This document shows, in pieces, positions 12,670-34,544 of a DNA stretch of 64,000 nucleotides. Position numbers and translations under genes: made by a program. Source of the stretch: Oceanibaculum indicum P24 (GTDB lineage: Bacteria > Pseudomonadota > Alphaproteobacteria > Oceanibaculales > Oceanibaculaceae); NCBI RefSeq assembly GCF_000299935.1, contig NZ_AMRL01000003.1, forward strand, positions 1 to 64,000. The letters are read 5' to 3'. The stretch's first letter is position 1. Every line of letters starts with the position of its first letter. The notes below the pieces were generated by a model. The model saw only the letters and a program-made list of their open reading frames with translations, ran no database searches and was not told the DNA's origin.

Positions 12670-12772
12670 GCTGTCCCCTAGCCCCTGACGCCCGTGATTA
12701 AACTAATAATTACAGTAGTTTCGATGCGGGAGCGAAGTCCAGCCCCTCGTGATGGGCCAGAAATGGGGCCGG

Positions 12773-13819: not shown

Positions 13820-13997
13820 CGACCTTCTCCCCCGTTTTATTTGCAAATCTTCTAATTGATAAAAAGCTTGGCATATTGCCGTATTCGGAGCAACCCGCCC
13901 GCTCGGGGATCCGGGCCGTTCGGGACGGAATGGGCATCGTTCCGGGACGGAATGTCAGGTCGGCCGCAACGGCATGGAGGACAGTGAAGGCTGAGCC

Positions 13998-16289
13998 ATG
14001 CCGAAAACCGGAACACAGGACCTTATTCCCATGCTCCCGACCGACACCTACTTCCCCTATCAGTGGCACCTCATCAATACCGGCCAAGATGGCGCCAGAG
14101 TTGGCGTTGACCTGAATGTCGTGCCGGTCTGGCAGGACTACACCGGCAAGGGGGTGATTGTCGGGATTTACGATTCCGGCGTCCAGGTCGGCCATCCGGA
14201 CCTGTCGGCGAACTTCGACCCTGCCTTGCAGCCGACAACGGTTTTCGGACCGCACGATCCCGATCCGGTCGATGGACGCTTTGTCACCCAGGATGGGCAC
14301 GGCACGGCTGTTGCCGGGCTGATCCTGGCGGCGAACAACGGGTTCGGGGTGGTCGGCGTCGCCTATGACGCCACCTTCGGCGCGGTTAACCTGATCCTGT
14401 CCGACAGCTATGAGTCGGATAATGAGGCGGGCGACGCCACCGAACTGACCGCCCTGAACTACCAGATGGCGCTGTACGATGTGATCAACCACAGCTATGG
14501 GCCGGACACACCCTTCATCTCCAACTTCACCGAATTCGAGAATTTCGCCAATCTCGCATCGATGGACCGGGCGGCCCTGCTGGGGCGGGATGGCCTCGGC
14601 ACCGTCCATGTCGTCGCCGGCGGCAACGAGCGTACCGACGGCAACATGACGACCTATGGCGATCTCGGCAATCTGCGCTACACCATCAATGTCGCCGCCG
14701 GCTCCGCCGAAGGCGATATCCTCTATTACAGCAATCCCGGCGCCTCGCTGGTCGTCACTGCCCCGGTGGACCGCAATCCCGGCGATGACGGCTTCAAGTC
14801 GGTTACCACCGACCTGCTGGCCGGCCTCGGCTATTCCGGTAGCAACAATGCCGAAATCGATAGCTCGGACTATTCCGACCAGATGAACGGCACCTCCGCC
14901 GCGGCGCCGATGGTGACCGGCGTGGTCGCGCTGATGCTGGAGGCGAACCCGTTGCTGGGCTATCGCGACGTGCAGGAAATCCTCGCGCTGACTGCCCGCG
15001 CGAACTGGCAGGAAGGCGCGTACGAGCTGTATGACTGGCAGACCAATGGCGCCACCTACTGGAATGGCGGCGGCCTGGAGTTCAGCCATGATTACGGCTT
15101 CGGCTTCGTCGATGCGCTGGCCGCCGTGCGGCTGGCCGAAAGCTGGACCGACCAGCGCACCCGCTACAACGAACAGATCGAAGTCGTCGAGGCGCTGGAC
15201 ATCGACACCGCCATCCCCAACACCGGCGTGCCGCTCAGCTACAGCTTCGAGGTGGAGGCCGATTTCACCGTCGAATGGGTGGAACTGGCGGTCGGGCTGG
15301 ACCACAGCTGGTGGGGCGATCTGACAGTCACGCTGCTGTCGCCGGACGGCACGGAGAGCGTCCTGATGAACCGGCCCGGTGTGACGCCGGACACCAATGC
15401 CGGTCTGGATATTCCGGTCAGTGCTTCCGGTTTCGAGGGCGAGGACGAATTGCAGTTCATCTTCGCCAGCAACGCCCCGCGTGGCGAGCTGGCGGACGGC
15501 GCCTGGACGGTGACTGTCACCGATGCCGGCGCGGCCGGTTTCGGTGTCCTGGAGGACCTGACCCTGCTGCTCTATGGCCGCCCGGAAGAGGATGTCCAGA
15601 CGTTCTACTACACTGACCGCTATGCCGATCTGGCAGCGGAACAGGCGGGCCGCCAGAGCCTGCAGACCGACGGACCGGCGAAGATCAACGCGGCGGCGGT
15701 CAGCGGCGATGTCGTCATCGACCTCTCGCCCGGCATGCTGGGCAGCATTGCGGGGGCGGACTTCACCCTCGTTGCGGGCAGCATCGTCACGGAAATCCTG
15801 GCGGGTGGCGGCAATGACAGCCTGACCGCCAGCGATATCGGCACCATCCTGGCCGGCGCACACGGCCACGATGCGCTGACCGGTGGCGCCGGGGCCGACC
15901 TGCTGGAAGGCAACAAGAATGCCGACACGCTGGTCGGCGGACTTGGGGATGACACGTTGCGCGGCGGCAAGGGGCACGACCGTCTGGACGGTGGTGGCGG
16001 CAACGATGTGATGCATGGCGGCCTCGGCGAGAACATCTTCGCCTTCGCCGACGGCAGCGGCATCGACACGATCATGGATTTCGGGATCGGCCGCGACCGT
16101 ATCGAGGTCAGCCAGGGCATCAACGGCACGAATATCTCCACCGCGGCGGACCTGCTGGCGCTCGTCGCCTCGGATATTGCCGGCAACGCGGTGCTTGACT
16201 TGGGCAGTGGGAACCACGTCACTCTTGTCGGGGTCGCGGCGGCCGCGCTGGCCGAGGATCACTTCCTGATATCCGCGCCGATAGCATGA
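13998..16289 (+). CDS. Secreted S8 subtilase with P domain and RTX repeats
   Basis: This 763-residue serine protease is of the kexin/furin-like type. The catalytic triad is visible: D59 (IYDSGVQ), H101 (QDGHGTAVAG) and S300 (MNGTSAAAPMVTG), with N210 as oxyanion residue. A P/Homo-B domain covers about 395-530. The C-terminal 150 residues hold RTX calcium-binding nonapeptides (GGAGADLLEG, GGLGDDTLRGG, GGGGNDVMHGG) and end like type I secretion substrates. There is no signal peptide, so export by an ABC/HlyD/TolC machine is expected. Such a machine lies 6 kb downstream on the same strand. The start follows the sequence GTGAAGGCTGAGCC. It may process secreted peptides, including the RiPP, or degrade external protein. 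The link to the RiPP is inference. Confidence 0.9.
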   Translation: MPKTGTQDLIPMLPTDTYFPYQWHLINTGQDGARVGVDLNVVPVWQDYTGKGVIVGIYDSGVQVGHPDLSANFDPALQPTTVFGPHDPDPVDGRFVTQDGHGTAVAGLILAANNGFGVVGVAYDATFGAVNLILSDSYESDNEAGDATELTALNYQMALYDVINHSYGPDTPFISNFTEFENFANLASMDRAALLGRDGLGTVHVVAGGNERTDGNMTTYGDLGNLRYTINVAAGSAEGDILYYSNPGASLVVTAPVDRNPGDDGFKSVTTDLLAGLGYSGSNNAEIDSSDYSDQMNGTSAAAPMVTGVVALMLEANPLLGYRDVQEILALTARANWQEGAYELYDWQTNGATYWNGGGLEFSHDYGFGFVDALAAVRLAESWTDQRTRYNEQIEVVEALDIDTAIPNTGVPLSYSFEVEADFTVEWVELAVGLDHSWWGDLTVTLLSPDGTESVLMNRPGVTPDTNAGLDIPVSASGFEGEDELQFIFASNAPRGELADGAWTVTVTDAGAAGFGVLEDLTLLLYGRPEEDVQTFYYTDRYADLAAEQAGRQSLQTDGPAKINAAAVSGDVVIDLSPGMLGSIAGADFTLVAGSIVTEILAGGGNDSLTASDIGTILAGAHGHDALTGGAGADLLEGNKNADTLVGGLGDDTLRGGKGHDRLDGGGGNDVMHGGLGENIFAFADGSGIDTIMDFGIGRDRIEVSQGINGTNISTAADLLALVASDIAGNAVLDLGSGNHVTLVGVAAAALAEDHFLISAPIA

Positions 16290-16311
16290 CCATGCAGCAT
16301 ATGGCGTTCAG

Positions 16312-17445
16312 ATGGCGGAACTGTCGGCAAGGACCCGAAGATTGGCAGCCCTGAACGATAGCCTGACCGAAACGCTCTCAGCGTTCCTGCGGGACGGGGA
16401 CGCCGTCGATATGCCCGGCCTGATCGCCGAACTGCAGGAACATGCCCAGATCTGCAACACGACCCGCGCGATGAACAAGGTATCGGGCGTCGTCGGTGTC
16501 GAGGATAATGCGCAGGGCTTTCACAAGCTGCTGACCACCAGAATCCTGCCGGTCATCGAGCTGAAATTGCCGTCCTACAGTGCAACGGCGGGACAGGCGA
16601 ATTTGCTCGACCTCGTCGAACTGCTGAACGCGCTTGTCGCCTGGGAGACGCGATCGGGGGTCGGGTTCGAGATACAGCGCTTCCGCCAGCAGCTTGCCGA
16701 CCGGCTCTATGGCGACATACAGCGGCAGACCGAGGCCTTCATCCGGCGGCTGGACAAGGCGGATTACGCGGAAATGCCGCAGGCCGGTGCCCTGATCCTG
16801 CAGCTTGATGCCCATATCTGGCTGCTGGAAGGCTTCGGCCAGCGCCAGAAGATGGCGGAGCTGCAGAATGCCTCCGCCCGCCTGGCCCGCAGCATCGTGC
16901 GCTCGGTCAGCCGCACCCTTCAGGGTTTCCTGGCCGATGGCGACATGGTGCGCCATTTCGACGTCTCAGCCGTGCTGCTCTATGTCGAGGATCTGGTCGT
17001 CGCCATGCTGCGCGTGCTGGAATCGACCAGGGAGGAAGAGGCCAAGGGCGCGGCACACCCCTTCATCCTGTCGCTTGGCGAACAGATCGCGACGGCTAAC
17101 CTCGCCGATCTGGATGCGCTTCTGTCCTACTATCTGCGCGCCCTGGAGCGCGCCCTCGACACGCCGAAGGTGAGCAAGGACACGTTCCGCATCTTCTCGA
17201 CACATGCCGGCATGACCTTGCGGCTGCTGCGCGGGCTTGCCCGCCAAGGGGGACAGGCGAAAGCCAGTGGCCTTTACGAGCGCGGCATGCAGCGGGTCTA
17301 TGGCCTGCAGGCAAAGGCGCGTAGCCTGCACCGTGACAGTGCCGAACCGCATATCGCGGACAAGCTTGCCCTGCTTGAAGCGATCACGGCCGATTTCGAA
17401 AAGCCCCTCGTCCAGATCATCCCTTCTGCCACAGACCGTCTTTGA
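16312..17445 (+). CDS. Unrecognised all-helical protein in the RiPP locus
   Basis: I do not recognise this 377-residue protein. It has no signal peptide or membrane segment and is predicted to be almost entirely helical. Several stretches look like diverged copies of one helical hairpin. Residues 18-44 (LTETLSAFLRDGDAVDMPGL), 131-168 (RLYGDIQRQTEAFIRRLDKA) and 196-232 (VRSVSRTLQGFLADGDMVRH) share a pattern of helix, F-[LI]-x-[DR]-x-D, short turn, helix. Residues 74-110 may be another copy. It lies 22 bases after the protease and its stop is four bases before the RiPP precursor start, so it is probably co-expressed. Immunity, chaperone or adaptor roles are possible; none is shown. Confidence 0.75.
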   Translation: MAELSARTRRLAALNDSLTETLSAFLRDGDAVDMPGLIAELQEHAQICNTTRAMNKVSGVVGVEDNAQGFHKLLTTRILPVIELKLPSYSATAGQANLLDLVELLNALVAWETRSGVGFEIQRFRQQLADRLYGDIQRQTEAFIRRLDKADYAEMPQAGALILQLDAHIWLLEGFGQRQKMAELQNASARLARSIVRSVSRTLQGFLADGDMVRHFDVSAVLLYVEDLVVAMLRVLESTREEEAKGAAHPFILSLGEQIATANLADLDALLSYYLRALERALDTPKVSKDTFRIFSTHAGMTLRLLRGLARQGGQAKASGLYERGMQRVYGLQAKARSLHRDSAEPHIADKLALLEAITADFEKPLVQIIPSATDRL

Positions 17446-17449
17446 CCCC

Positions 17450-17851
17450 ATGATCGATAAACCCCTGTCTCCCGCGGAACGCCTGAAGGACACGGTCTGG
17501 CAACAGATTGTGCGGCTGGCCACGACAGACGCCCATTTCCGCGACAGGCTGCAGACCGAGCCGGTGGCCCTGTTGCAGGCTGTCGGCATCACGGTGCCGG
17601 CCGGCATCCGCTTCGTCTGTGTCGAGACGGCTCCGGACCAGGTCGCCGAGGTGCTGGGGCGCTCGGACGGCAATCTCGTCTATGTTCCCATCGTGACATC
17701 TGCCGCGCCGGACGCCGCTGGCGAACTCGAAGACGAGGCGCTGGATGCCGTGGTCGGCGGCACCGGACCGCTGACAGGTACGCCCATGCCATCGAACTTT
17801 TCCGCGATGATCTCCTTCACGGATGGCGTCAATGTCGGTTCCGCCAATTGA
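17450..17851 (+). CDS. NHLP leader peptide family RiPP precursor
   Basis: This is a 133-residue peptide precursor. Residues 10-82 match the nitrile hydratase alpha-subunit-like leader (WQQIVRLATTDAHFRDRL, LLQAVGITVPAGIRFVCVE), without the CxxCSC metal site of the true enzyme. The leader ends in a double-glycine site: L93, L98 and V101 sit at -12, -7 and -4, with G103-G104 at -2/-1. Cleavage there would release a 29-residue core. ATG 17450 starts four bases after the upstream stop; the longer frame only overlaps that gene. The NHLM exporter set downstream supports the call. The core has no cysteine, so lanthionine or thiazole chemistry is not expected. Confidence 0.92.
   Translation: MIDKPLSPAERLKDTVWQQIVRLATTDAHFRDRLQTEPVALLQAVGITVPAGIRFVCVETAPDQVAEVLGRSDGNLVYVPIVTSAAPDAAGELEDEALDAVVGGTGPLTGTPMPSNFSAMISFTDGVNVGSAN
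17762..17848 (+). other. Predicted core peptide after the GG site
   Basis: These codons follow G103-G104 and encode residues 105-133, starting TGPLTGTPMP and ending TDGVNVGSAN. The core holds four Thr, four Ser, two Pro-flanked turns, two Met and no Cys, Lys, Arg or His, with one Asp as its only charge. The cleavage position is inferred from the double-glycine consensus and the C39 peptidase encoded downstream. Confidence 0.75.
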
Positions 17852-17890
17852 GCCGGATATGTTAGCTTCAATGTCAGCATCGCCGGGCAA

Positions 17891-17910
17891 GCCGCTGGGT
17901 ATCCAGTGGC
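17891..17910 (+). promoter_or_regulatory. Intercistronic hairpin after the RiPP precursor
   Basis: An 8-bp stem with one G-U pair (GCCGCTGG with CCAGTGGC) and a GTAT loop lies 40 bases after the precursor stop and 41 bases before the STAS gene. It has no T-run. A hairpin at this place could stabilise the precursor message or thin out read-through, a common way to make more precursor than machinery. Confidence 0.4.
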
Positions 17911-17951
17911 CCAACCGGATGCATCCAACAGCAGGCAATCGGTAGAGGGCT

Positions 17952-18287
17952 ATGGAGATCAAGGAAAGCGATCACGGCGATACGCTGGTCGTCATCTTGT
18001 CCGGCAGGCTGGACAGCACGACAGCGCCGGAGTTCGAGCGGCACATCATCGGACGCATCGAAGGCGGCCGGAACGACATCGTGATCGATTTCGGCGGGCT
18101 CGAATTCATCTCCAGCGCCGGCTTGCGCGTCATGCTGATGGCGGCCAAGCGGGTGAAGGCCGGCAAGGGTCGCCTCAGCCTGTGCGCGCTGAACGACAAT
18201 ATCGCCAAGGTCTTCGAGATCAGTGGCTTTCTCGCGATCTTCACCATCTATCCGGACAGCGGCGCCGCCTTGGCCGGTAACAGGTAA
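17952..18287 (+). CDS. STAS-domain anti-sigma-factor antagonist (RsbV-like)
   Basis: The 111-residue single STAS domain is of the SpoIIAA/RsbV type. The conserved phosphorylation segment DFGGLEFISSAGLRVMLMA is present at about 53-71, so one of its two serines should be the switch residue. Unphosphorylated, such proteins bind an RsbW-like kinase and free that kinase's partner. A matching phosphatase lies immediately downstream and a matching ATPase four genes further on, completing a partner-switching set. GAGGGCT precedes the start. Confidence 0.9.
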   Translation: MEIKESDHGDTLVVILSGRLDSTTAPEFERHIIGRIEGGRNDIVIDFGGLEFISSAGLRVMLMAAKRVKAGKGRLSLCALNDNIAKVFEISGFLAIFTIYPDSGAALAGNR

Positions 18288-18355
18288 GCTGTGATGCCTT
18301 CGACCGGGCCGCGCACCGCCGGCCCCCTTTCCGTCGTTCGGGGCATTCCCTCACC

Positions 18356-20317
18356 ATGTCGCTGAAACTCCGCCTCCTGTTGCTGATCGTCGGGTTGCTG
18401 AGCGCCGCCATCCTAGGGCTGGCGGTCTCGCTCGGCTGGCAGGCGCGCAACGCGATCCTGCTGCAGGCGGAATCCGATGGCACCCGCATCGCCCGCGTGC
18501 TGGCGCAGGCGGCCTCCGTCGCCAACACGGTGCCGGCGGAAATCGAGCAGGTGATCGGCCGGCAGATGGTGTCCGAGGCGCTGCTGACAGCGCATCTGTT
18601 CGACATCGCGGAGCAGGCTGGCCTCTCCACCGAGGCGGTCAATGCCCGGCTGATGGAGATCACGGCGCGCAGCGCGATCACCGAAATCTGGGGTTTCGAC
18701 GAATCCGGCACTTCGACCTATGGCAGCCTGCCGGATGTCGGCCTGCAGATCTTCCCCGACCCGGAACGCAGCCCGGTCCTGTCGCGCTTCTGGCATCTGC
18801 TGTCGGGCGAGAAATTCTCCGTCACCGGCCCCGGCATCGACCGCGATCTCGACGGAAAGCGCTTCAAATATGCCGGCGTACGCGGCGTCAGCGCACCGGG
18901 GGCGGCGCTGGTCGGCTATGATTTCGACTTTATCGGCGGCATCGTGGACAGGATCGGCCTCGTGCAGGTGGTGCGCAGCCTGCTGGATAGCGGCCGCGTG
19001 AACGCGATCTGGGTGTTCGACTATCAGTTCCAGCCGCTCGCCCAGGGCACGGTGTTCGGTGACGAGGTGAACCAGCCGCCGGACAGCCGGGAGCAAGAAG
19101 CGCTGGACGACAGCATCCGCACCGGCAGCACGGCAAGCTGGCTGGCCGGGCGCGACATGGTGGTGGTGACGCCGATCCCCGGTCCCGATGGCGGCCCGAT
19201 TGGCGCCACGCTGCTGCGCCTGCCGACCGACGGGCTGCAGAAGCTGATGCAGTCCAGCCTGATCTATACCGCCATCGTCGCCGGGCTGGTGCTGGCCGCC
19301 AGCCTGATCACCGCGACCTGGTTCTCGCACCGGCTGACCCGCCCGCTCACCAGCATCGGCGAGGCGGCCCACGCGGTCGAGCAGCAGCGTTATGTCCGGG
19401 GCCAGCTTCAGCAGGTCGCCGGCCGCAGCGACGAGTTCGGCAACCTCGCCCGCGTGTTCGAGGAGATGGCCAAGCAGGTCTTCGCCCGCCAGGAGGAACT
19501 GGATGCGCTGGTGAAGGAACGCACCCTGCAGCTGCAGCAGAAGAATGAACAGCTGGAAGCCGCCAACGCGCAGATCGAGCAGGAGCTGCTGCTCGCCCAG
19601 AACATGCAGACCGCCATCCTGCCGGCCGCCTTCCCGCAGGACCCGCGCTTCACCGGGTACGCGATGATGAAGGCGGCGCGCCATGTCGGCGGCGATTTCT
19701 ACGATTACTTCATGCTGGACGAGGACCGCATCGCCGTGGTCATGGCCGACGTGTCCGGCAAGGGCGTGCCGGCGGCCTTCTTCATGGCAGTGTCGCGCAC
19801 GGTGATCCAGAGCGTGGCGCAGAAGGCGGACGGTCCGGGCGACTGCCTTGCCCGCGCCAACGATCTGGTATGCCAGGAGAACCCGCTGGAGCTGTTCGTT
19901 ACCGTGTTCTACGGCATCCTCAATGCCCGCACCGGCGAGTTCCGCTTTGCCAATGGCGGGCATAACCCGCCCTATCTGATCGGCGCGGACGGTACCGTCA
20001 CGGCGCTGGAGACCACCGGCGGCATGGCGCTCGGCATCCTCGACGAGATGCCCTTCGCGGAAAAAAGCGTGACCCTGCGGCCGGGCGACTCGCTGTTCCT
20101 GTTCACCGATGGCGTGACGGAAGCCTTCGACCCTGCCAACGAGGAATATGGCGAGGCCCGGCTGGAATCTGCCCTGCAGGGCAGCCATTCCCTTGCCATC
20201 GAGGTGCTGGCCCAGCGCGTGGTGGACGATGTGGGCGCCTTCAGCAACACCGCCCCGCAATCGGATGATCTGACATGCCTGGCGTTGCGCTATGCCGGGC
20301 CGGGCGGGCGGACATGA
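18356..20317 (+). CDS. Membrane-anchored PP2C/SpoIIE phosphatase with HAMP domain (RsbU-like)
   Basis: The 653-residue protein has a first membrane segment at about 5-27, an extracytoplasmic sensor region at about 28-301 and a second membrane segment at about 302-323 (YTAIVAGLVLAASLITATWF). A HAMP linker, a coiled coil (about 376-415) and a C-terminal SpoIIE/PP2C domain follow. Metal-site residues are seen at D447 in HVGGDFYDY and in MADVSGKGVPAAFFMA, with FTDGVTEA later. It should dephosphorylate the STAS protein in response to an outside signal. Its stop overlaps the methyltransferase start as ATGA. The ligand is unknown; the size fits a Cache-like sensor, but I cannot prove that. Confidence 0.9.
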   Translation: MSLKLRLLLLIVGLLSAAILGLAVSLGWQARNAILLQAESDGTRIARVLAQAASVANTVPAEIEQVIGRQMVSEALLTAHLFDIAEQAGLSTEAVNARLMEITARSAITEIWGFDESGTSTYGSLPDVGLQIFPDPERSPVLSRFWHLLSGEKFSVTGPGIDRDLDGKRFKYAGVRGVSAPGAALVGYDFDFIGGIVDRIGLVQVVRSLLDSGRVNAIWVFDYQFQPLAQGTVFGDEVNQPPDSREQEALDDSIRTGSTASWLAGRDMVVVTPIPGPDGGPIGATLLRLPTDGLQKLMQSSLIYTAIVAGLVLAASLITATWFSHRLTRPLTSIGEAAHAVEQQRYVRGQLQQVAGRSDEFGNLARVFEEMAKQVFARQEELDALVKERTLQLQQKNEQLEAANAQIEQELLLAQNMQTAILPAAFPQDPRFTGYAMMKAARHVGGDFYDYFMLDEDRIAVVMADVSGKGVPAAFFMAVSRTVIQSVAQKADGPGDCLARANDLVCQENPLELFVTVFYGILNARTGEFRFANGGHNPPYLIGADGTVTALETTGGMALGILDEMPFAEKSVTLRPGDSLFLFTDGVTEAFDPANEEYGEARLESALQGSHSLAIEVLAQRVVDDVGAFSNTAPQSDDLTCLALRYAGPGGRT

Positions 20318-21261
20318 CCATGGCCGGGTGCAAGATGAAACGGAATGCCAGTGAAAGCGGGATGCCCGGCACGGCGGAGGAGACCTCCCTGCCCTATGGT
20401 TCCCAGGCTGAACAGGCGATGGAAAAGACGGACGAGATGAACGACGCTGCGGCCATACAGAACGCGAGCGATGGCGAGATCGCGGCCATTGCGCGTGCCT
20501 ATGAACGCTATTTCGCCAGTGGCTTCTACGACCAGCGCTATCCCCGCCACAATGCGCAGAGCCTGGCGACGATTCTGCAGGTCGGCAGGGAGGCCCGCGC
20601 CATCCTGGATTTCGGCTGCGGCGACGGGCGCTATGTGCTGCCGCTGCTGCATACGACAGGCGCGCGGATATTCGCCTATGACATCTGCCCGGTGGCGCTG
20701 AAGAGCCTGGAGCGCCGCATCGCCAATGAACCGGCACGCGACCGGGTGCAGACGATCCTCGGCCCGCGCGAGGACTATACCGAGGGCGCGCCGGTCGATC
20801 TGGCGCTCATCATGTTCGGCGTGCTGGGGCATATTCCGGGCCGGGCGAACCGGGTGGCAACGCTGCGCCGCATCCGCGACCTGCTGACGCAGCAAGGCAG
20901 CGGAAACCTCGTCGTCAGCGTGCCCAATGCCGCCCGGCGGTTCCGGTTGGAGCAGCAGGAACACAAGGCTGCCCTGGCGGCAGGCCAGCCGCGCCCGCCG
21001 GCCCGCGAGGACGGCGATATTCTTTACAGCCGCGCGCATGACGGCGAGCGGATCGAACTGTTCTATCATCTCTACAGCCCGGCCATGCTGGCCGGTGAAC
21101 TGCGCGATGCCGGCTTCCGGAACGTCCGGATGCAGGCGGAGAGTGTGTGGCCGGAATCCGGCGTCACCCGCTCCGCCACGCTGGCTACGTTCGACAGGCT
21201 GTTGCGGTCGGTCACCCCGCCGGGCCTCGGCTATGGCATTCTGGCGACGGCGGAGGCATGA
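20314..21261 (+). CDS. Class I SAM-dependent methyltransferase
   Basis: The 315-residue Rossmann-fold methyltransferase has motif I ILDFGCGDGRYVLPLL at about 107-122 and the post-I region FAYDICPVALKSLERR. An acidic/hydrophobic motif near DLALIMFGVLGHIPG is followed by a C-terminal half with LFYHLYSPAMLAGELRDAGF. Its ATG overlaps the phosphatase stop (ATGA) and its own stop is adjacent to the next start, so it is tightly coupled in the operon. No other RiPP-modifying enzyme is present, which makes it the only visible candidate for tailoring the peptide. It could instead act on a small molecule. A ~45-residue low-conservation N-terminus means the true start could be later. Confidence 0.85.
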   Translation: MTMAGCKMKRNASESGMPGTAEETSLPYGSQAEQAMEKTDEMNDAAAIQNASDGEIAAIARAYERYFASGFYDQRYPRHNAQSLATILQVGREARAILDFGCGDGRYVLPLLHTTGARIFAYDICPVALKSLERRIANEPARDRVQTILGPREDYTEGAPVDLALIMFGVLGHIPGRANRVATLRRIRDLLTQQGSGNLVVSVPNAARRFRLEQQEHKAALAAGQPRPPAREDGDILYSRAHDGERIELFYHLYSPAMLAGELRDAGFRNVRMQAESVWPESGVTRSATLATFDRLLRSVTPPGLGYGILATAEA

Positions 21262-21263
21262 GG

Positions 21264-21995
21264 ATGGGAAACACGGCCTTGGCAACGGAAACGGTGACAA
21301 CGGCGGCGATCCGCTTCGAGGATGTCAGCAAGCACTTCGGAGAGACACCCGTGCTGGAGGCGGTCTCCTTCACCGTCCTGCCCGGCCAGGTGGTCTGCAT
21401 CGCCGGACCGTCGGGGACCGGCAAGACCACGTTGCTGCGCCTGGTGAATGCGCTCACCCCCGCCGATCAGGGGCATATCCAGGCCGGCCCCTTCAACGTC
21501 ACCCAGCCCGGTACCGACCTGCAGGCGCTGCGCCGCTATGTCGGGATGGTGTTCCAGCGCTACAGCCTGTTTCCACACAAGAGCGTGCTGGAGAATTTGA
21601 CCATGGGGCCGCGCCAGGTGCTGCGCCGGCCGCGCGCGGAGGCTGAGGAGCAGGCCATCGATTTGCTGAACCGGCTGGAAGTGGCGGAGCTGCGCGAGCG
21701 CTATCCGGGGGAGCTTTCGGCCGGCCAGCAGCAGCGCGTGGCGCTGGTGCGCGCCCTGACGATGGATCCGAAAATCCTGCTGCTGGACGAGGTGACCGCC
21801 GCCCTCGATCCGCGCATGGTGGACAAGGTGGCGGAGCTGATCCGCCAGATGGCGGCCACCGGCATGACCATCCTGGCCTCCAGCCATGACATGCGCTTCG
21901 CCACCCTGTGCGCCGATCTGCTGGCGCAGCTGGACCGGGGCCGGCTCGGGCCGCTGCAGCCCCCTCCGCCCCCCTCTCCGGCAGTGGAACCGTAA
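21264..21995 (+). CDS. Amino-acid-type ABC transporter ATP-binding protein (orphan)
   Basis: This is a 243-residue ABC ATPase of the GlnQ/HisP group. It has Walker A GPSGTGKTT, the Q-loop region FQRYSLFPHKSVLENL, signature LSAGQQQRVALVRAL, Walker B ILLLDEVTAALDP, and H-loop SSHDMRF. I choose ATG 21264 because GGAGG lies seven bases before it; the ATG at 21258 overlaps the previous stop but is too close to that site. No permease is adjacent. A convergent operon at 31-34 kb encodes amino-acid-type permeases and binding proteins without an ATPase, so the two probably form one importer. Confidence 0.88.
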   Translation: MGNTALATETVTTAAIRFEDVSKHFGETPVLEAVSFTVLPGQVVCIAGPSGTGKTTLLRLVNALTPADQGHIQAGPFNVTQPGTDLQALRRYVGMVFQRYSLFPHKSVLENLTMGPRQVLRRPRAEAEEQAIDLLNRLEVAELRERYPGELSAGQQQRVALVRALTMDPKILLLDEVTAALDPRMVDKVAELIRQMAATGMTILASSHDMRFATLCADLLAQLDRGRLGPLQPPPPPSPAVEP

Positions 21996-22001
21996 CGGGC
22001 T

Positions 22002-22418
22002 ATGGCGGCGCGGCTGGAAATCTCCATCGCCAATGACCGGAACGCCATCCCGGAAATCGTCGGCGCGGTCACCGCGCTGATCGAGGAGAACGGCCTTGCC
22101 CCCGATATCGCCTATGCCATCGAACTCGCCATCGACGAGCTGGTGACGAACGCGATCTCCTACGGCTATCCGGACGGCGCGGCCGGCACGGTCACGGTCG
22201 AGGTCGCAATCGAGAGCGACCGCATCGTGCTGGTCGTGCGCGATGACGGTATCGCCTTCGATCCGCTGGCGCAGGCGCCCGAACCGACACTGGAGGGCAA
22301 TGTCGAGGATAGGCCGGTCGGGGGGCTTGGCCTGCATCTGGTGGAAGCGATGATGGATGAAGTCGCCTATGAACGGCGCAACGGGGAGAACCGGCTGACC
22401 TGCGTGAAGCGGCGCTAA
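22002..22418 (+). CDS. RsbW/SpoIIAB-like ATP-binding protein
   Basis: The 138-residue GHKL-type ATPase is of the anti-sigma kinase family. The N-box ELAIDELVTNAISYGYP is at about 41-57, the G1 box VVRDDGIAFDP near 75-85, and the G2 box GGLGLHLVEAM near 106-116. Such proteins phosphorylate a STAS partner and hold a sigma factor or other target. The STAS and PP2C partners are in the same operon. No sigma factor of the usual partner-switching type is encoded here, so its output target is open. Confidence 0.88.
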   Translation: MAARLEISIANDRNAIPEIVGAVTALIEENGLAPDIAYAIELAIDELVTNAISYGYPDGAAGTVTVEVAIESDRIVLVVRDDGIAFDPLAQAPEPTLEGNVEDRPVGGLGLHLVEAMMDEVAYERRNGENRLTCVKRR

Positions 22419-22459
22419 GCCGCGCAAGGACGGCGGGAACGAAGGAAGGGGCGGAATCG

Positions 22460-23716
22460 ATGGCGGACGGTATCTTCAGGAAGACCGCGCTGGAACGGCT
22501 GTCCTCGCCGGACCAGCTCGACCGTCTGATCACCGTCACCAGACCGCGCGGCTGGATGGCGCTGGTCATGCTGTGCGTGATCGCCGCCGCCGCCATCGCC
22601 TGGGGCATCCTCGGCAGCATCCCGACGCGCGTGCAGGGCAATGGCATCCTCATCAGCACCGGTGGGCAGGTCGTCAATGTGCAGGCCCCGGGCAGCGGCA
22701 CGCTGAGCGAGATCGACATCCGTGTCGGCGAGACGGTCGCTGCCGGACAGGTCGTCGCCCGGCTGTCCCAGACCGATGCCGCGCAGCGCTATGAGAATGC
22801 GCTGGCCGTGGTCGAGGAGAAGCTGGACAACCAGCGCCGCGTGGAAGAACAGGCCGACCAGGAATGGGCGGTGAAGCAGCAGAATTTCGACCGCCGCCGG
22901 GCGGCCCTGCGCGACCGGCTGGCCGCCGGGCAGCAAAGGCTGGACTTCCTGCGCGGGCGGCTGGCCGATGAGGAAAGGTTGCTGGCGGACAAGGTCATCA
23001 CCCGCGAGGTCGTGGCCCGGACCCGCGACGAGGCCAACCGCGCCGCCCAGGAAGTGGCGGAGGTGCGCAACGACCTGGCGCGGATCGAGGCCGAGGCGCT
23101 GGACCTCTCGGCAACGCTCGACAATCGCCGCCGGGCCGCCGAGGATGCGGTCAGCGAGGCACGCCGGCAACTGGCGCAGGTCGAGGCGACGCTGAACCGC
23201 GCCACCATCGTCATCGCTCCGGCCAGCGGCACGGTTACCGAGGTGAAGGTCTCGCAGGGCGCGCTGGTCACGGAAGGCCAGTCGCTGTTCGCCTTCCAAT
23301 CCGGCGGCACGTTCCTCGATCTTGTCCTCTACATCCCCCCGCAGCATGGCAAGCGGGTAAAGCCCGGTATGCCGGTGCAGATTTCCCCCTCCACCGCCCG
23401 GCGCGAGGAATATGGCACCGCGCTTGGCACTGTGGACTGGGTCTCCGACTTCCCGGCGACGCTGGAGGGCATGCGCGCGGTGCTGCAGAATGACGAGCTG
23501 GCGCGCAATTTCCAGCAGGGGGGACCGCCCTACGTCGCCCGTGTGGCGCTGCAGCACGACCCCGAGACGGTCAGCGGCTATCGCTGGAGTTCCGCCAAGG
23601 GAGCGACGCTGGCACTGTCCGGCGGCACACTGGCCAGCGCGGAGATCACGGTTTCCGAGCAAGCGCCGGTGACCCTCATCATCCCGCTGCTGCGCGAATA
23701 TACCGGGCTGTTCTGA
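22460..23716 (+). CDS. NHLP bacteriocin system secretion protein (HlyD-like adaptor)
   Basis: The 418-residue membrane-fusion protein belongs to the NHLM_micro_HlyD type. One inner-membrane segment (about 32-50) is followed by a biotinyl-lipoyl-like half (NVQAPGSGTLSEIDIRVGE), a long coiled coil at about 115-245, the second lipoyl half (IVIAPASGTVTEVKVSQG) and a beta-barrel region ending PLLREYTGLF. It should bridge the ABC exporters to TolC. AAGGAAGGGGCGG precedes the start; the next gene begins six bases after its stop. Confidence 0.92.
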   Translation: MADGIFRKTALERLSSPDQLDRLITVTRPRGWMALVMLCVIAAAAIAWGILGSIPTRVQGNGILISTGGQVVNVQAPGSGTLSEIDIRVGETVAAGQVVARLSQTDAAQRYENALAVVEEKLDNQRRVEEQADQEWAVKQQNFDRRRAALRDRLAAGQQRLDFLRGRLADEERLLADKVITREVVARTRDEANRAAQEVAEVRNDLARIEAEALDLSATLDNRRRAAEDAVSEARRQLAQVEATLNRATIVIAPASGTVTEVKVSQGALVTEGQSLFAFQSGGTFLDLVLYIPPQHGKRVKPGMPVQISPSTARREEYGTALGTVDWVSDFPATLEGMRAVLQNDELARNFQQGGPPYVARVALQHDPETVSGYRWSSAKGATLALSGGTLASAEITVSEQAPVTLIIPLLREYTGLF

Positions 23717-23722
23717 TCGCCG

Positions 23723-25978
23723 ATGACCGACAGCACATCCGCCCCCGTAGCCCCCGGCGCTCCTGCCCCATCCCCGGCGCCGAAGCCGAATGCCCCGAAA
23801 GGCGGCCGGCGCTTCCGCACGCCCACCATCCTGCAGATGGAGGCAACGGAATGCGGCGCCGCCGCACTTGCGATGATCCTCGCCCGGTTCGGTCGCTGGG
23901 TGCCGCTGGAGGAGTTGCGGGTGGAGTGCGACGTGTCGCGCGACGGCTCCAAGGCCTCCAACATCCTGCGCGCGGCACGGCGCTACGGGCTGGTGGCGAA
24001 GGGCTACCGGCGCGAGCCGGAGAGTGTCACCAACCTGCCCTTCCCGATGATCATCTTCTGGAACTTCAACCACTTCCTGGTTCTGGAAGGGATCGATCGG
24101 AAAGCCGGAAAGGTGTGGCTGAACGACCCGGCGCTGGGTCCGCGTACGGTCAGTCTGGAGGAGTTCGATTCGGGCTTCACCGGTGTGTGCCTGGTGTTCG
24201 AGCGCACGCCGGACTTCAAAAAGGGCGGCGAGAAGCCCAGCATCATTGGCCCGCTGAAGCGCCGGCTGCGCGGCTCGCAGGGCGCTATGGCCTATGTCAT
24301 GCTGGCCACCCTGCTGCTGGTGCTCCCCGGCCTGGTCATTCCGGTCTTTTCCAAGATCTTCGTCGATGACGTGCTGATCGGCGGCACCTCGCAATGGCTG
24401 CTGCCGTTGTTGATCGGCATGGCGGTGACCGCCGCGCTGCAGGGCACCCTCACCTGGCTGCAGCAGATCCACCTGTCGCGGCTGGAGATGAAGCTGGCGC
24501 TCAGCTCCTCCGCCCAGTTCTTCTGGCATGTGCTGCGGCTGCCGGTGGAGTTCTTCAACCAGCGCTTCCCCGGCGATATCTCGGCGCGGGTCTCCTCCAA
24601 CGACGACATTGCCACCCTGCTGTCCGGGCAGCTGGCGAACAACATCATCGGCCTGGTGATGATCGGTTTCTACGCCATCGTCATGCTGTTCTACGATGTC
24701 TGGCTGACCATCATCGGCGTCGGGCTGGCACTGCTGAACTTCCTGGCGCTGAAGGTCGTCGCCCGCCGCCGCGAGGACAGCAGCCGCAAACTTGTGAACG
24801 AACAGGGCAAGCTGGCCGCCACCTCGATCAGCGGCATCCAGCTGATCGAGACGCTGAAATCCAGCGGGTCGGAGAGCGATTTCTTCTCCAAATGGTCCGG
24901 GTTGCAGGCCAAGTACCTGACCGCCCAGCAGGAGCTGGCGGTCACCACGACGCTGATCTCCGCCGCCCCCATCCTGCTGTCCGCGCTGTCCACGGCGGCG
25001 ATCCTGGCGGTGGGCGGCTTCCGGGTCATCGACGGCGAACTGACCATCGGCGGGCTGGTCGCCTTCCAGGCGCTGCTGGCGAATTTCTCCACACCCATCG
25101 AACAGCTGGTCGGGCTGGGCGGCGAGATCCAGACCATCAAGGGCAGCCTGACGCGCATCGAGGATGTGCAGAAGTACCGGATCGATGACCGGCTGGGCGA
25201 AACCGAACGGATGTTCGCCACCGCCGCGCCGGAGCGCCCTCTGCCGCCGAAGCTGCGCGGCCATATCGAGCTGCGCGACCTGGTGTTCGGCTATAACCGC
25301 TCCGACAAGCCGCTGATCGATGGGCTGAACCTGACCGTGCAGCCGGGCCAGCGCGTCGCCCTGATTGGCGGGTCGGGCAGCGGCAAATCGACCATCGCCA
25401 AGATCGTCAGCGGCCTGTACCGCCCCTGGTCCGGCAGCGTGCTCTATGACGGCATCCCGCTGGACGAACTGCCGCACGCCTATTTCGCCAACTCCGTCTC
25501 CACGGTGGATCAGGAAATCTTCCTGTTTGCCGGCACGGTGCGGGAAAATATCGGCATGTGGGACAATTCCGTCAGCGAGGAGATGATCACCAGGGCGCTG
25601 CGCGATGCCTGCATCCTGGATGCCATCGAAAGCCGGGCCGGCCGCTACGAGTCGCTGATTGCCGAGAATGGCGGGAATTTCAGCGGTGGCCAGCGCCAGC
25701 GGCTGGAGATCGCCCGCGCGCTGGCCGGCAACCCGACCGTGCTGATCCTCGATGAGGCAACCAGTGCGCTGGACCCGGTGGTCGAGAAACGCATCGACGA
25801 GAATCTGCGGCGGCGCGGCTGCACCTGCCTGATCGTCGCACACCGCCTCAGCACGATCCGCGACTGCGACGAGATCATCGTGCTGGAACGCGGACAGGCA
25901 GCGCAACGCGGCAAGCACGAAGAACTGATCGCCGTGGACGGCCCCTATCGTCGGCTGATCCGGTCGGGAGAAGCCTGA
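23723..25978 (+). CDS. NHLP family export ABC transporter with C39 peptidase
   Basis: The 751-residue peptidase-permease-ATPase fusion (NHLM_micro_ABC1 type) cuts the leader after the double glycine and exports the core. The C39 domain spans about 30-160, with C44 in ATECGAAAL, oxyanion Q38, H117 in NFNHFLVL and D135 in NDPALG all intact. Six membrane helices lie at about 180-460. The ATPase has Walker A GGSGSGKST, signature FSGGQRQRLEIARAL, Walker B VLILDEATSALD and H-loop AHRLSTI. It lies between the adaptor and the second ABC exporter with one to six bases between genes. Confidence 0.95.
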   Translation: MTDSTSAPVAPGAPAPSPAPKPNAPKGGRRFRTPTILQMEATECGAAALAMILARFGRWVPLEELRVECDVSRDGSKASNILRAARRYGLVAKGYRREPESVTNLPFPMIIFWNFNHFLVLEGIDRKAGKVWLNDPALGPRTVSLEEFDSGFTGVCLVFERTPDFKKGGEKPSIIGPLKRRLRGSQGAMAYVMLATLLLVLPGLVIPVFSKIFVDDVLIGGTSQWLLPLLIGMAVTAALQGTLTWLQQIHLSRLEMKLALSSSAQFFWHVLRLPVEFFNQRFPGDISARVSSNDDIATLLSGQLANNIIGLVMIGFYAIVMLFYDVWLTIIGVGLALLNFLALKVVARRREDSSRKLVNEQGKLAATSISGIQLIETLKSSGSESDFFSKWSGLQAKYLTAQQELAVTTTLISAAPILLSALSTAAILAVGGFRVIDGELTIGGLVAFQALLANFSTPIEQLVGLGGEIQTIKGSLTRIEDVQKYRIDDRLGETERMFATAAPERPLPPKLRGHIELRDLVFGYNRSDKPLIDGLNLTVQPGQRVALIGGSGSGKSTIAKIVSGLYRPWSGSVLYDGIPLDELPHAYFANSVSTVDQEIFLFAGTVRENIGMWDNSVSEEMITRALRDACILDAIESRAGRYESLIAENGGNFSGGQRQRLEIARALAGNPTVLILDEATSALDPVVEKRIDENLRRRGCTCLIVAHRLSTIRDCDEIIVLERGQAAQRGKHEELIAVDGPYRRLIRSGEA

Positions 25979-25979
25979 G

Positions 25980-28940
25980 ATGACCGATCCCGCCATCACC
26001 GGATATGACAGTTTCGATGCCGAACTGCTGGCCAAGATCGACGGCGAGAAGCTGTCGGTCGGCTATCACAATCCCTTCCTGGTCAGCGACCCCGGCCTGA
26101 TCTGGCTGGTGCTGAAGGGCAGCGTGGATATCTATGCCGTGCCGCTGACCGATGGCGCCGTCGCCGGCACCGGCCAGCATCTGATGAGGGTAAGCGAGGG
26201 CGAGCTGATCTTCGGCATGCCGGCTATCCCCGATGACACTGTTGCCGATGGCCGCTCCCAGATCGGCCTGCGCGCGGTGGCGACCATGGGGACGGAGCTG
26301 TTCCGCGCCCGGCGCAGCGATATCGAGCAGGATGATTTCGACCTGATCGTGGTGGACTGGATCGACCGCTGGATCGCCGCCCTGGCGGAGATCGTGGCAC
26401 CGGTCGGCGGACCGCGCCCGACCGGCTATCTGGAAGCCGAGCCGGACATCGCCTTCACCGCCGGCGCGGTACTGACGCCGCAGCGCGGAGACACGATCTG
26501 GGTCACGCTGGATGCCGGATATGCAACCGCCATCGGCCGCTGGCGCCTGACGGAGGACACTGCCGGCATTCCGCTGCCGCTGGCCGGCAATATGTGGCTG
26601 GCCTGCGAGTCCGACTGCCGCCTCACCGGCGCCTATACGCCGACCGCCTTGTTCCGGGGCATGCTGTGGGCAAGCCTCGATTCCTTCCACCTGGCTGTCA
26701 TGCAGGTCATCGCCCGGCAGCGCGAGGAGGCCGGTGCCAGCGAGACCAGCCGGCTGGAGCGCAAGGCCGGCGCCAACCGCGCCACCTTCAACGCCTCGCT
26801 GCGGCGGATCGGCGGCATCCTGACAGGGCCGGAGGCCGAAGGCACCGTCACCGGCACGGCGGCGACCGGCGACCCGCTGTTCGACGCCGCAAGCCTGGTC
26901 GCCCAGGCCGCCGGCATCACGCTGACGCCACCAACCGACGATACCGATGCCGCGCCCCGCCTGCTCTCCGACATCGTCCGGCGCTCGCACATCCGCGTGC
27001 GGCGGGTCGTGCTGTTCGACGACTGGTACCGACGCGACAATGGCCCGCTGCTGGCCTATCGGGCGGCGGACAACAGGCCGGTTGCACTGCTGCCTGATGG
27101 CGTTGACCGCTATGTGATGGCCGATCCGGCGGACAGCACGCGGCGCCCCGTCACAGCAGCCCTGGCGGACAGCCTGTCCGGCGAGGCGCATGTCTTCTAC
27201 CGTCCGTTCCCAGCGCGCGCGATGCGCGTACGCGAGGTTTTCGCCTTCGGGCTACGCGGGCTGCGCCGCGACATGGCGACCATCGTGATGATGGGCATCC
27301 TGGCCGGGCTGATCGCGCTGGCGACACCGATCGCGACCGGGCAGATTTTCGCCAGCATCATCCCGCGCGCCGATATTCCGGGGCATCTGACGATCATTGC
27401 CGGGCTGGTGCTGGCGGCGCTGGGCACCGCAACCTTCACGGTAACCCGCAGCTTCGCCGTGCTGCGGGTGCAGACCCGCATGGATGCCAGCATCCAGACT
27501 GCCGTCTGGGACCGTCTGCTGGCCCTGCCGGTGCCGTTCTTCCGGGAATACTCGTCCGGCGACCTGGCCGACCGCGCCAACGGCATCAACGCGATCCGCG
27601 AACTGCTGAGCGGCACCATCATGCAATCGGTCATGACGGTGCTGTTCTCGCTGTTCAGCCTGCTGCTGCTGTTCTGGTACAGCTGGAAGCTGGCCTTTAT
27701 CGCGCTGGCCATCGTTGCCGTGCTGCTGGGGGCTTCGCTGACCATCGCGCTGGCGATGGTGCCGCTGCAGCGCGAGATGATCGGCCGCGGCGGCAGGATC
27801 GAAGGGCTGATCTTCCAGCTTCTCACCGGCCTGTCGAAGCTGCGCATCTCGGCCAGCGAGCCGCGCGCCTTCGCGAAATGGGCCGAACAGTTCGGCATCA
27901 CCAAGGAGATCACCTACAAGGCGCGCAAACTGGCCGCGATACAGGCGGTCATCACCGCGCTGTTTCCTCTGCTGGCCTCTATCGTGCTGTTCGCCTCGAT
28001 CAGCTATCTGCTGAAGGGCGGCGAACAGGGAGAGGGCGGTTTCGGCATCGGCGATTTCCTGGCCTTCAACGCAGCCTTCGGGCAGTTCAGCGCCGCCATG
28101 GTCGGGCTGCTGGGCACAGTCTCGGTGCTGATCGCCATCGTGCCGCTGTATGAGCGCGTGCGCCCGATCCTGGAAACGGTGCCGGAGATCACCGACGGCA
28201 AGGCCGATCCCGGCGCCATCGATGGTACCGTGGAGTTCTCCCGGGTGGTGTTCCGCTACAACCCCGAAACGCCGCCGATCATCGACGGCGTGTCGCTGAC
28301 CATCGACAGCGGCAGCTATGTCGCCTTTGTCGGCGCCTCGGGCTCTGGCAAATCGACACTGGTGCGGCTGGTGCTGGGCTTCGAGCAGCCCGAAGCCGGC
28401 GGCGTCTATATCGACGGCAAGGACATTTCCGGCCTCGACATGCAGGCGGTGCGCCGGCAGATCGGTGTGGTGCTGCAGAATGGCCGCATCATGTCGGGCT
28501 CGATCTTCGACAATATCGTCGGCAGCCTGCCGCTCACCATCGACGATGCCTGGGAGGCCGCGCGCATGGCCGGGTTCGACCAGGATGTCGAGGCGATGCC
28601 GATGGGCATGCACACCGTACTGTCGGAAGGGGCCGGCACGCTGTCCGGCGGGCAGCGCCAGCGCCTGATGATCGCCCGCGCGCTGGTGCACAAGCCGCGC
28701 ATCCTGATCCTGGACGAGGCGACCAGCGCGCTCGACAACCGCACGCAGGAGGTGGTGAATGCCAGCCTGGCGCGGATGAACATGACGCGCATCGTGGTCG
28801 CCCACCGGCTCAGCACCATCCAGAATGTGGATCGCATCTTCGTGATGCGGCAGGGCCGTGTCGTCGAGCAGGGCGATTTCAACGCGCTGATGGCGCTGAA
28901 TGGCGAGTTCGCGGAACTCGCCCGCCGCCAGTTGGTCTGA
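25980..28940 (+). CDS. NHLP export ABC transporter permease/ATPase, second subunit
   Basis: The 986-residue protein (NHLM_micro_ABC2 type) has no peptidase domain. Instead it carries a ~410-residue N-terminal region that begins like a cyclic-nucleotide-binding or cupin fold (NPFLVSDPGLIWLVLKGSVD, GELIFGMPAI). The membrane domain lies at about 420-720 and the ATPase at about 745-980, with GASGSGKST, LSGGQRQRLMIARAL, ILILDEATSALD and AHRLSTI. It probably pairs with the peptidase exporter as a heterodimer or passes the peptide in a second step. It starts one base after the upstream stop. Confidence 0.94.
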   Translation: MTDPAITGYDSFDAELLAKIDGEKLSVGYHNPFLVSDPGLIWLVLKGSVDIYAVPLTDGAVAGTGQHLMRVSEGELIFGMPAIPDDTVADGRSQIGLRAVATMGTELFRARRSDIEQDDFDLIVVDWIDRWIAALAEIVAPVGGPRPTGYLEAEPDIAFTAGAVLTPQRGDTIWVTLDAGYATAIGRWRLTEDTAGIPLPLAGNMWLACESDCRLTGAYTPTALFRGMLWASLDSFHLAVMQVIARQREEAGASETSRLERKAGANRATFNASLRRIGGILTGPEAEGTVTGTAATGDPLFDAASLVAQAAGITLTPPTDDTDAAPRLLSDIVRRSHIRVRRVVLFDDWYRRDNGPLLAYRAADNRPVALLPDGVDRYVMADPADSTRRPVTAALADSLSGEAHVFYRPFPARAMRVREVFAFGLRGLRRDMATIVMMGILAGLIALATPIATGQIFASIIPRADIPGHLTIIAGLVLAALGTATFTVTRSFAVLRVQTRMDASIQTAVWDRLLALPVPFFREYSSGDLADRANGINAIRELLSGTIMQSVMTVLFSLFSLLLLFWYSWKLAFIALAIVAVLLGASLTIALAMVPLQREMIGRGGRIEGLIFQLLTGLSKLRISASEPRAFAKWAEQFGITKEITYKARKLAAIQAVITALFPLLASIVLFASISYLLKGGEQGEGGFGIGDFLAFNAAFGQFSAAMVGLLGTVSVLIAIVPLYERVRPILETVPEITDGKADPGAIDGTVEFSRVVFRYNPETPPIIDGVSLTIDSGSYVAFVGASGSGKSTLVRLVLGFEQPEAGGVYIDGKDISGLDMQAVRRQIGVVLQNGRIMSGSIFDNIVGSLPLTIDDAWEAARMAGFDQDVEAMPMGMHTVLSEGAGTLSGGQRQRLMIARALVHKPRILILDEATSALDNRTQEVVNASLARMNMTRIVVAHRLSTIQNVDRIFVMRQGRVVEQGDFNALMALNGEFAELARRQLV

Positions 28941-28956
28941 CGGGAGGAGACGGATC

Positions 28957-30303: not shown

Positions 30304-30370
30304 CCGCAAACGCCCTGGTTGAAGTTGCGCGCCGCCACCCGATATCCATCGGGAACGGAGGCCTTCAGCC

Positions 30371-31855: not shown

Positions 31856-31862
31856 GCCGGCC

Positions 31863-34416: not shown

Positions 34417-34544
34417 CGAGACGTCCGTCCGCGGGGAAGGCAAAACCGGTGCCCCCAAAACAAGCATGAGGGCGCCTGCTCCGCAACCCCCTGCCCCGGC
34501 CATCGTCCCGCAAGCCACGGGCGAAAAACCGCCCGGACAGAAAA

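Follow-up and report, generated by a model that had tools for sequence, protein, structure and literature searches.

The window, that is, the whole stretch of 64,000 nucleotides of Oceanibaculum indicum P24 DNA that was analysed, encodes on its plus strand, within a closely packed run, the three proteins of a putative partner switch, namely (i) a STAS protein of the anti-anti-sigma type (RsbV/SpoIIAA-like; 17952–18287), (ii) a membrane-bound phosphatase of the SpoIIE/RsbU PP2C type (18356–20317), and (iii) a predicted RsbW/SpoIIAB-like serine kinase of the HATPase (GHKL) type (22002–22418). The domain scores of all three are far above chance, and judged from the sequences their catalytic residues are intact. 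The STAS protein (PF01740, 71.7 bits) exceeds the cut-off of TIGR00377 (ant_ant_sig; 82.6 versus 53.45), and alignment to SpoIIAA chains places its S55 at the position of the SpoIIAA phospho-serine; S54 and S55 are invariant among the six relatives compared. A single STAS domain with a predicted phospho-acceptor serine marks it as a putative member of this type. The phosphatase consists of a transmembrane segment, an extracytoplasmic region, a second transmembrane segment, a HAMP domain (PF00672), a coiled linker and the PP2C domain (SpoIIE, PF07228, 177 bits), so that the first-pass annotation is right in seeing a membrane phosphatase with an extracytoplasmic region. Its SpoIIE domain carries the metal-binding Asp motifs (GDFYD, ADVSGKG, TDG and QSDD, invariant across eight relatives) that identify it as a PP2C phosphatase, and its AlphaFold model matches the RsbU domain of Rv1364c and SiaA-PP2C. 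The sensor part of that model is of moderate confidence (pLDDT about 55–80 in 1–290; pTM 0.44), and a Cache-like fold is not claimed for it, as all fold matches fall on the phosphatase domain. The kinase (HATPase_c_2, PF13581, 100.6 bits; cut-off 27.4) exhibits the HATPase_c_2 fold with N-box and G-boxes, has RsbW and SpoIIAB chains as best PDB matches, and contains E46 and N50, which do not vary within its family. Genome-wide, the phosphatase is the sole SpoIIE phosphatase and the kinase the sole strong HATPase_c_2 protein.

In this genome the switch is embedded in a RiPP gene set. Upstream are located an AraC-family regulator (12773–13846, minus strand) and, on the plus strand, an S8 (subtilisin-type) protease with C-terminal repeats (13998–16289; recognized from its translation and assigned to the RiPP set by neighbourhood), the all-helical protein U377 (16312–17445; no Pfam or NCBIfam match) and a putative NHLP-type precursor (17450–17851; TIGR03793, 41.5 bits, below the cut-off of 50.9). 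Downstream follows, on the same strand, an exporter (22460–28940) comprising HlyD (22460–23716), ABC1 with a C39 peptidase (23723–25978) and ABC2 (25980–28940), all three of which score above the curated NCBIfam cut-offs (TIGR03794, TIGR03796 and TIGR03797) and thus belong to the NHLM/NHLP export system (Haft et al. 2010, PMC2887384), and then the exporter's TolC-like outer-membrane protein (28900–30303), which accompanies the NHLM genes also in two other Oceanibaculum species (G002 and G003). Scanning positions 17300–23800 for promoters and terminators yielded no plus-strand site, with counts being the same as for shuffled sequence.

Between the phosphatase and kinase genes lie, likewise on the plus strand, genes for a class I SAM methyltransferase (20437–21261, with the reading frame reaching 5' to 20275; Pfam Methyltransf_23) and a GlnQ-like ABC importer ATPase (21264–21995; PF00005 (ABC_tran); PRK09493, 209 bits). 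The ATPase had been taken for an orphan, but its partners are encoded 9 kb downstream of it on the minus strand (31178–34518), that is, a permease with an EAA loop (31178–31915), an SBP_bac_3-type binding domain fused to a further permease with an EAA loop (31863–33530), and a second solute-binding protein (SBP2; 33520–34518). In the window, these permease and binding-protein genes and the switch are thus on opposite strands and 9 kb apart. The SBP_bac_3-type protein, the two EAA-loop permeases and the cognate ATPase together make up a predicted ABC importer of the polar amino-acid type.

Comparison within the genus separates the two neighbourhoods. In G002 and G003, STAS, phosphatase, methyltransferase, SBP2, binding protein/permease, permease, GlnQ-like ATPase and kinase genes form a single run of eight devoid of exporter genes, with the permease orthologue located between the binding protein/permease and ATPase genes, and the exporter is found on a different contig. 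In the nearest relative, of the same genus (G001), the protease and the precursor persist as 3' remnants only (the former with an in-frame stop), the NHLM exporter and the TolC-like protein are absent, and the AraC regulator is missing from the locus. The same genome retains the importer as well as the switch, the latter at 85–94% identity, with dN/dS values of 0.13–0.27 for all module genes; the whole switch is under purifying selection. In each of the four Oceanibaculum genomes, the kinase gene comes directly after that of the importer ATPase. Hence, the adjoining RiPP exporter of O. indicum is a separable neighbour, and the importer is the conserved partner. The methyltransferase belongs with importer and switch and not with the RiPP genes, being linked to the binding protein/permease gene in Oceanibaculum, G150, G262, Defluviicoccus and G531.

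Linkage of importer and switch extends beyond the genus. In four further Alphaproteobacteria (G150, G262, G171 and Defluviicoccus, locus L102), the binding protein/permease, the permease and a divergent binding protein are encoded together with the same phosphatase at full length, sensor region included, and in G290 the same grouping fits across a contig break; the divergent SBP2 homologue is present in G150, G262, G171 and G290. Two in-frame fusions, each a single case from a draft or metagenome assembly, join switch and importer parts in one open reading frame: permease and phosphatase in Defluviicoccus (L102, 10438–13005, minus strand; 855 residues), and permease and kinase in G171 (L158, 10806–11960), the latter with a possible internal start. 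A further apparent permease–phosphatase fusion (L157) was rejected, as the frames differ. Importer loci lacking an ATPase gene have lost the EAA loop from both membrane domains, whereas those with GlnQ keep it, and the EAA-less proteins form one clade (98/95) beside Oceanibaculum. The phosphatase gene adjoins 6 of 8 evaluable EAA-less importers versus 0 of 13 canonical ones, a contrast uncorrected for shared ancestry. Kinase and STAS genes adjoin related importers also in Gammaproteobacteria (L077, L078 and L096) and Bacteroidales (L098, L117, L128 and L130); two gammaproteobacterial genomes with EAA-less importers (G531 and G650) contain neither a full phosphatase nor the kinase. With no ATPase gene nearby and the EAA coupling loop lost in both membrane domains, the EAA-less importers resemble receptors rather than pumps. 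We put forward, at slightly less than even odds, that polar amino-acid importers gave rise to ATPase-free receptors (a binding protein and two EAA-less permease domains) which signal through the phosphatase/STAS/RsbW-like switch and are sometimes fused to it, Oceanibaculum having kept an ATPase-competent form that would act as both transporter and receptor.

Importer linkage in several lineages, the fusions and the EAA-loop loss in ATPase-less relatives, all observed at the level of sequence, suggest that the importer, or an importer turned sensor, feeds the switch. We therefore favour, with somewhat better than even confidence, that the STAS protein, the phosphatase and the kinase serve an ABC importer of the polar amino-acid type as its signalling arm. 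In the mechanism that we infer, ligand, signal direction and output included, SBP2, the binding protein/permease and the permease (in Oceanibaculum along with the GlnQ-like ATPase) would inform the membrane phosphatase, which has an extracytoplasmic region of its own as well, about ligand or transport state. The active phosphatase would dephosphorylate S55 of the STAS protein, which in its unphosphorylated state would capture the RsbW-like kinase and so release the kinase's other partner; without signal, the kinase would phosphorylate the STAS protein and keep hold of that partner. As output, a sigma factor of the SigB type is improbable, and candidates are the importer itself, a distant target, and the helical neighbour U377, as output or adaptor. 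Homologues of U377 adjoin the kinase in Oceanibaculum, Azospirillum, G054 and L072; its AlphaFold model is all-alpha and matches generic helical repeats only (TM ≤0.29).

The classical partners of RsbW and SpoIIAB are sigma factors. With RsbW and SpoIIAB chains as its top structural matches, the kinase might then act as anti-sigma factor on RpoD, RpoH or an ECF-type sigma factor encoded at a distance, the importer-linked phosphatase serving as input only. The genome has 16 sigma-70 matches, many of them ECFs, and the 10 scanned comprise RpoD, two RpoH and ECF types. However, none of these 10 exceeds the TIGR02980 cut-off for SigB/SigF/SigG-type factors, the other six matches being ECF-sized at 65–78 bits, and none of the related loci examined has a sigma gene linked to the switch. 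A complete RsbU/V/W-type module with no SigB/SigF-type factor among the sigma matches scanned is borne out, as is the initial supposition that the output may be something other than a sigma factor. The Bacillus switches RsbU/RsbV/RsbW and SpoIIE/SpoIIAA/SpoIIAB likewise combine a PP2C phosphatase, a STAS protein with aligned phospho-serine and a GHKL kinase with aligned N-box residues, but the Oceanibaculum proteins remain below the equivalog cut-offs of RsbW (59 versus 145), SpoIIAB (50.6 versus 135) and SpoIIAA, and on the input side they are connected with an ABC importer. Also comparable is RbaV/RbaW/RbaY of the alphaproteobacterium Rhodobacter capsulatus, which likewise unites STAS, HATPase and PP2C proteins without a linked sigma gene; experiments to identify a cognate sigma factor were unsuccessful there, and RbaV itself looked like the output (PMC3999984); RbaY differs in being a cytoplasmic REC-PP2C protein encoded elsewhere, with no reported importer link (PMC3999984). 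A distant sigma factor as target is hence considered unlikely.

We regard it as rather unlikely that control is purely local, with kinase and STAS protein regulating transport activity or permease state of the importer and no onward transcriptional output. The invariable position of the kinase gene behind the importer ATPase gene in Oceanibaculum and the permease–kinase fusion of G171 would accord with such a role, but ATPase-less relatives keep the phosphatase although no transport cycle remains to be regulated, and the module is accompanied by the methyltransferase and U377.

That the switch controls the RiPP exporter or precursor, with the phosphatase sensing exported peptide as feedback, is very unlikely even though the switch is flanked by precursor and exporter genes on the same strand at short distances, since G001 preserves the switch under selection after losing the RiPP set, exporter and switch occupy separate contigs in G002 and G003, none of the 24 further NHLM loci inspected across Pseudomonadota carries the switch within about 10 kb, and an AraC regulator, not the switch, recurs beside NHLM exporters. 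An independent NHLM–switch neighbourhood does exist in Vicinamibacterales (L073) and leaves such control a small probability; there, HlyD, ABC1 and ABC2 are followed after ≤7 nt by HATPase and STAS genes, then by genes for a Peripla_BP_6 protein and for a sensor kinase, and further on by a PP2C gene. A HATPase–STAS pair at a contig start (G423) was rejected as the lost terminus of such an NHLM gene run, the sequence upstream not being ABC2. Relatives of the AraC regulator (tblastn, 30–34% identity) also adjoin NHLM exporters elsewhere, beside HlyD in L047 and L052 and close to the exporter in L054, which makes the AraC protein the better candidate for regulating the RiPP set. STAS, anti-sigma and phosphatase genes go unmentioned in the text of Haft et al. 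(2010, PMC2887384), and the switch is no component of the NHLM/NHLP system; after comparison with the 24 other NHLM loci and three genomes of the same genus, the reading as a conserved NHLM component is rejected as the main one. Of the partner switch initially placed inside a RiPP export operon, the module without a SigB/SigF-type factor stands, and the membership in RiPP export is not supported.

Among other known systems, SiaA of Pseudomonas aeruginosa (SiaABCD) is likewise a membrane HAMP-PP2C protein with an extracytoplasmic region and represents the best full-length NCBIfam match of the phosphatase, but at 106.8 bits against a 700-bit cut-off, and neither the SiaA partner proteins nor a diguanylate cyclase output are seen at the locus. 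Rv1364c of Mycobacterium tuberculosis (a fused sensor-RsbU-RsbW-RsbV protein), the top fold match, demonstrates that switch parts can fuse, but has no ABC permease part. The importer shares SBP_bac_3, two related permeases and a GlnQ-like ATPase with polar amino-acid importers of the AapJQMP/GlnPQ type, and the fusion of binding protein and permease with GlnPQ; it differs in its link to a partner switch and in having relatives without ATPase gene and EAA loops. In the literature searched, which covered subscription journals and preprints thinly, we found no report of an ABC-importer-linked partner switch and no description of importers turned into non-pumping receptors by losing their ATPase gene and EAA loops.

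A striking neighbourhood in a single genome, here a switch inside a peptide-export run, can thus mislead on function. Partner switches are widespread outside Bacillus, with inputs and outputs that are mostly unknown. An ABC importer whose connection to the switch is conserved, and in some cases a fusion, offers a concrete input, which is testable with purified binding proteins, and importers that have lost ATPase gene and EAA loops would be receptors that signal without pumping.

The three partner-switch proteins that the first-pass annotation had recognized in the window are confirmed, all of them well above their Pfam cut-offs: a STAS protein (17952-18287; also above the TIGR00377 cut-off), a membrane phosphatase with HAMP and SpoIIE domains (SpoIIE/PP2C; 18356-20317) and an RsbW-like HATPase_c_2 protein (22002-22418). 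In the alignment, S55 of the STAS protein occupies the phospho-serine position of SpoIIAA; the predicted model of the phosphatase matches the RsbU domain of Rv1364c and SiaA-PP2C; and the HATPase, whose best PDB relatives are RsbW and SpoIIAB, has E46 and N50 invariant across its family. The genome as a whole encodes a single SpoIIE phosphatase and a single strong HATPase_c_2 protein; of its three STAS matches, the two besides the switch STAS sit in long open frames. The reported lack of a SigB/SigF-type sigma factor is likewise confirmed: the genome has 16 sigma-70 matches, among them RpoD, two RpoH and ECF factors, and none of the 10 scanned is of the SigB/F/G type. A FecI-like ECF gene at 2368-2874 is flanked by its own FecR and TonB genes.

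The best-supported reading, and a fairly probable one, is that the switch is coupled to a polar-amino-acid-type ABC importer. The GlnQ-like ATPase (21264-21995) had been taken for an orphan because the solute-binding protein (SBP) and permease genes of the window, as of its relative G001, lie apart from the switch on the opposite strand. It does have such partners: in the Oceanibaculum genomes G002 and G003, STAS, PP2C, methyltransferase, SBP2, SBP/permease fusion, permease, ATPase and HATPase form one run of eight genes. When the SBP/permease protein was searched against 385 alphaproteobacterial genomes and 20 loci were read, 12 proved to be canonical importers with an ATPase and without the switch, and one further locus (L161) was cut. 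In G150, G262 and G171 the fused SBP/permease type has as neighbours a divergent SBP and the same full-length phosphatase, joined by a methyltransferase in the first two and not in G171; in G290 the phosphatase opens another contig, as a contig break would predict, and all four genomes encode a related HATPase. In Defluviicoccus (L102), reached independently through the HATPase search, one locus combines HATPase, PP2C, permease, SBP/permease, methyltransferase, SBP and STAS. Of 80 HATPase loci, three from Chromatiaceae-type Gammaproteobacteria (L077, L078, L096) have importer permeases adjoining the HATPase, and four from Bacteroidales (L098, L117, L128, L130) unite HATPase, SBP/permease and ATPase, three of them with STAS.

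Gene fusions are found as well: in L102, a single 855-residue frame leads from the permease directly into the phosphatase, entering it at its first membrane helix, and in G171 (L158, 10806-11960) the permease reads without a stop into the HATPase. An internal start may exist ahead of this HATPase part, with a stretch resembling a ribosome-binding site, so that free HATPase may also be produced. In other Pseudomonadota (L189, L192, L193), PP2C and HATPase share one open frame, followed by STAS. The giant permeases of the Thiosymbion-type Gammaproteobacteria (L078:11572-15825, L096:11355-15605, L077:564-3878; about 1100-1400 aa), which adjoin PP2C/HATPase genes, carry many tandem SBP_bac_3-like domains, then one importer membrane domain.

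The EAA loop is the ATPase docking site of type I importer permeases. At this loop the second permease has a gap of about 19 residues in loci devoid of an ATPase gene (L102, L155, L157, L158, L178, L179 and the first modules of both L078 and L096; in L156 a single domain could be read), and their SBP/permease domain also lacks the EAA motif; the loop is retained in Oceanibaculum, canonical importers and the Bacteroidales proteins. In the SBP-domain tree the EAA-less SBP/permease proteins form one supported clade (98/95), and Oceanibaculum falls between it and the canonical importers in the midpoint-rooted drawing. PP2C adjoins 6 of 8 EAA-less versus 0 of 13 canonical importers (Fisher p about 0.0005, shared ancestry ignored). 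The genomes of the gammaproteobacterial EAA-less members G531 and G650 encode neither the full phosphatase nor the RsbW-like HATPase of such a switch.

It had been proposed instead that the switch serves RiPP export, the phosphatase sensing the exported peptide; as the main function of the switch this is unlikely. One independent exporter and switch neighbourhood was found, in Vicinamibacterales (L073:1753-11921), where HATPase and STAS come directly after NHLM HlyD-ABC1-ABC2, then a Peripla_BP_6 protein and an sCache histidine kinase, with PP2C further on. In none of 24 other readable NHLM loci in Pseudomonadota, some ending at contig ends, does a STAS, HATPase or PP2C gene lie within about 10 kb; in Tistrella-type genomes the distance to STAS-HATPase is about 15 kb. 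Among the four Oceanibaculum genomes compared (the window's own and G001-G003), exporter and switch lie on separate contigs in G002 and G003, and G001 lacks NHLM HlyD. DNA comparison revealed that G001 is missing window positions 12679-16232 (AraC regulator, most of the S8 protease), 17427-17785 (most of the NHLP precursor) and 22415-30318 (exporter and TolC-like protein); it retains the final S8 codons, with the stop at the identical place, and the precursor 3' end with a one-base gap. These remnants indicate that the common ancestor carried the RiPP set here and that G001 lost it, while keeping the switch, methyltransferase, ATPase, permeases and U377 (16312-17445). The kept genes exhibit dN/dS of 0.13-0.27, similar to the 0.17-0.18 of the neighbours NaPi and TonB; since part of this divergence is older than the loss, the values support, and do not prove, maintenance of the switch without the RiPP set. 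That set (precursor and S8 protease within 13998-17851, and the exporter) has no dedicated modifying enzyme recognized nearby, the methyltransferase not being counted because it goes with the importer. The AraC-family regulator (12773-13846), relatives of which adjoin NHLM exporters of other Alphaproteobacteria (L047, L052 and L054), likely controls it.

As for the output of the switch, the best unnamed candidate is U377, to which gene neighbourhood alone points; it is predicted to be all-helical with a fold yielding no informative structural match. In each of the four Oceanibaculum genomes it adjoins STAS or HATPase, and Azospirillum L104, G054 and L072 have homologues directly next to the HATPase. 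In L104 (6077-9886 and 10408-11499), helical proteins of this family accompany RsbW-like HATPases, and a Hanks-type kinase has a related region as its C-terminal part. In G002 and G003, a globin-coupled-sensor-like protein, as judged from its translation, adjoins the STAS gene (L036:1810-3159, L037:15660-17036).
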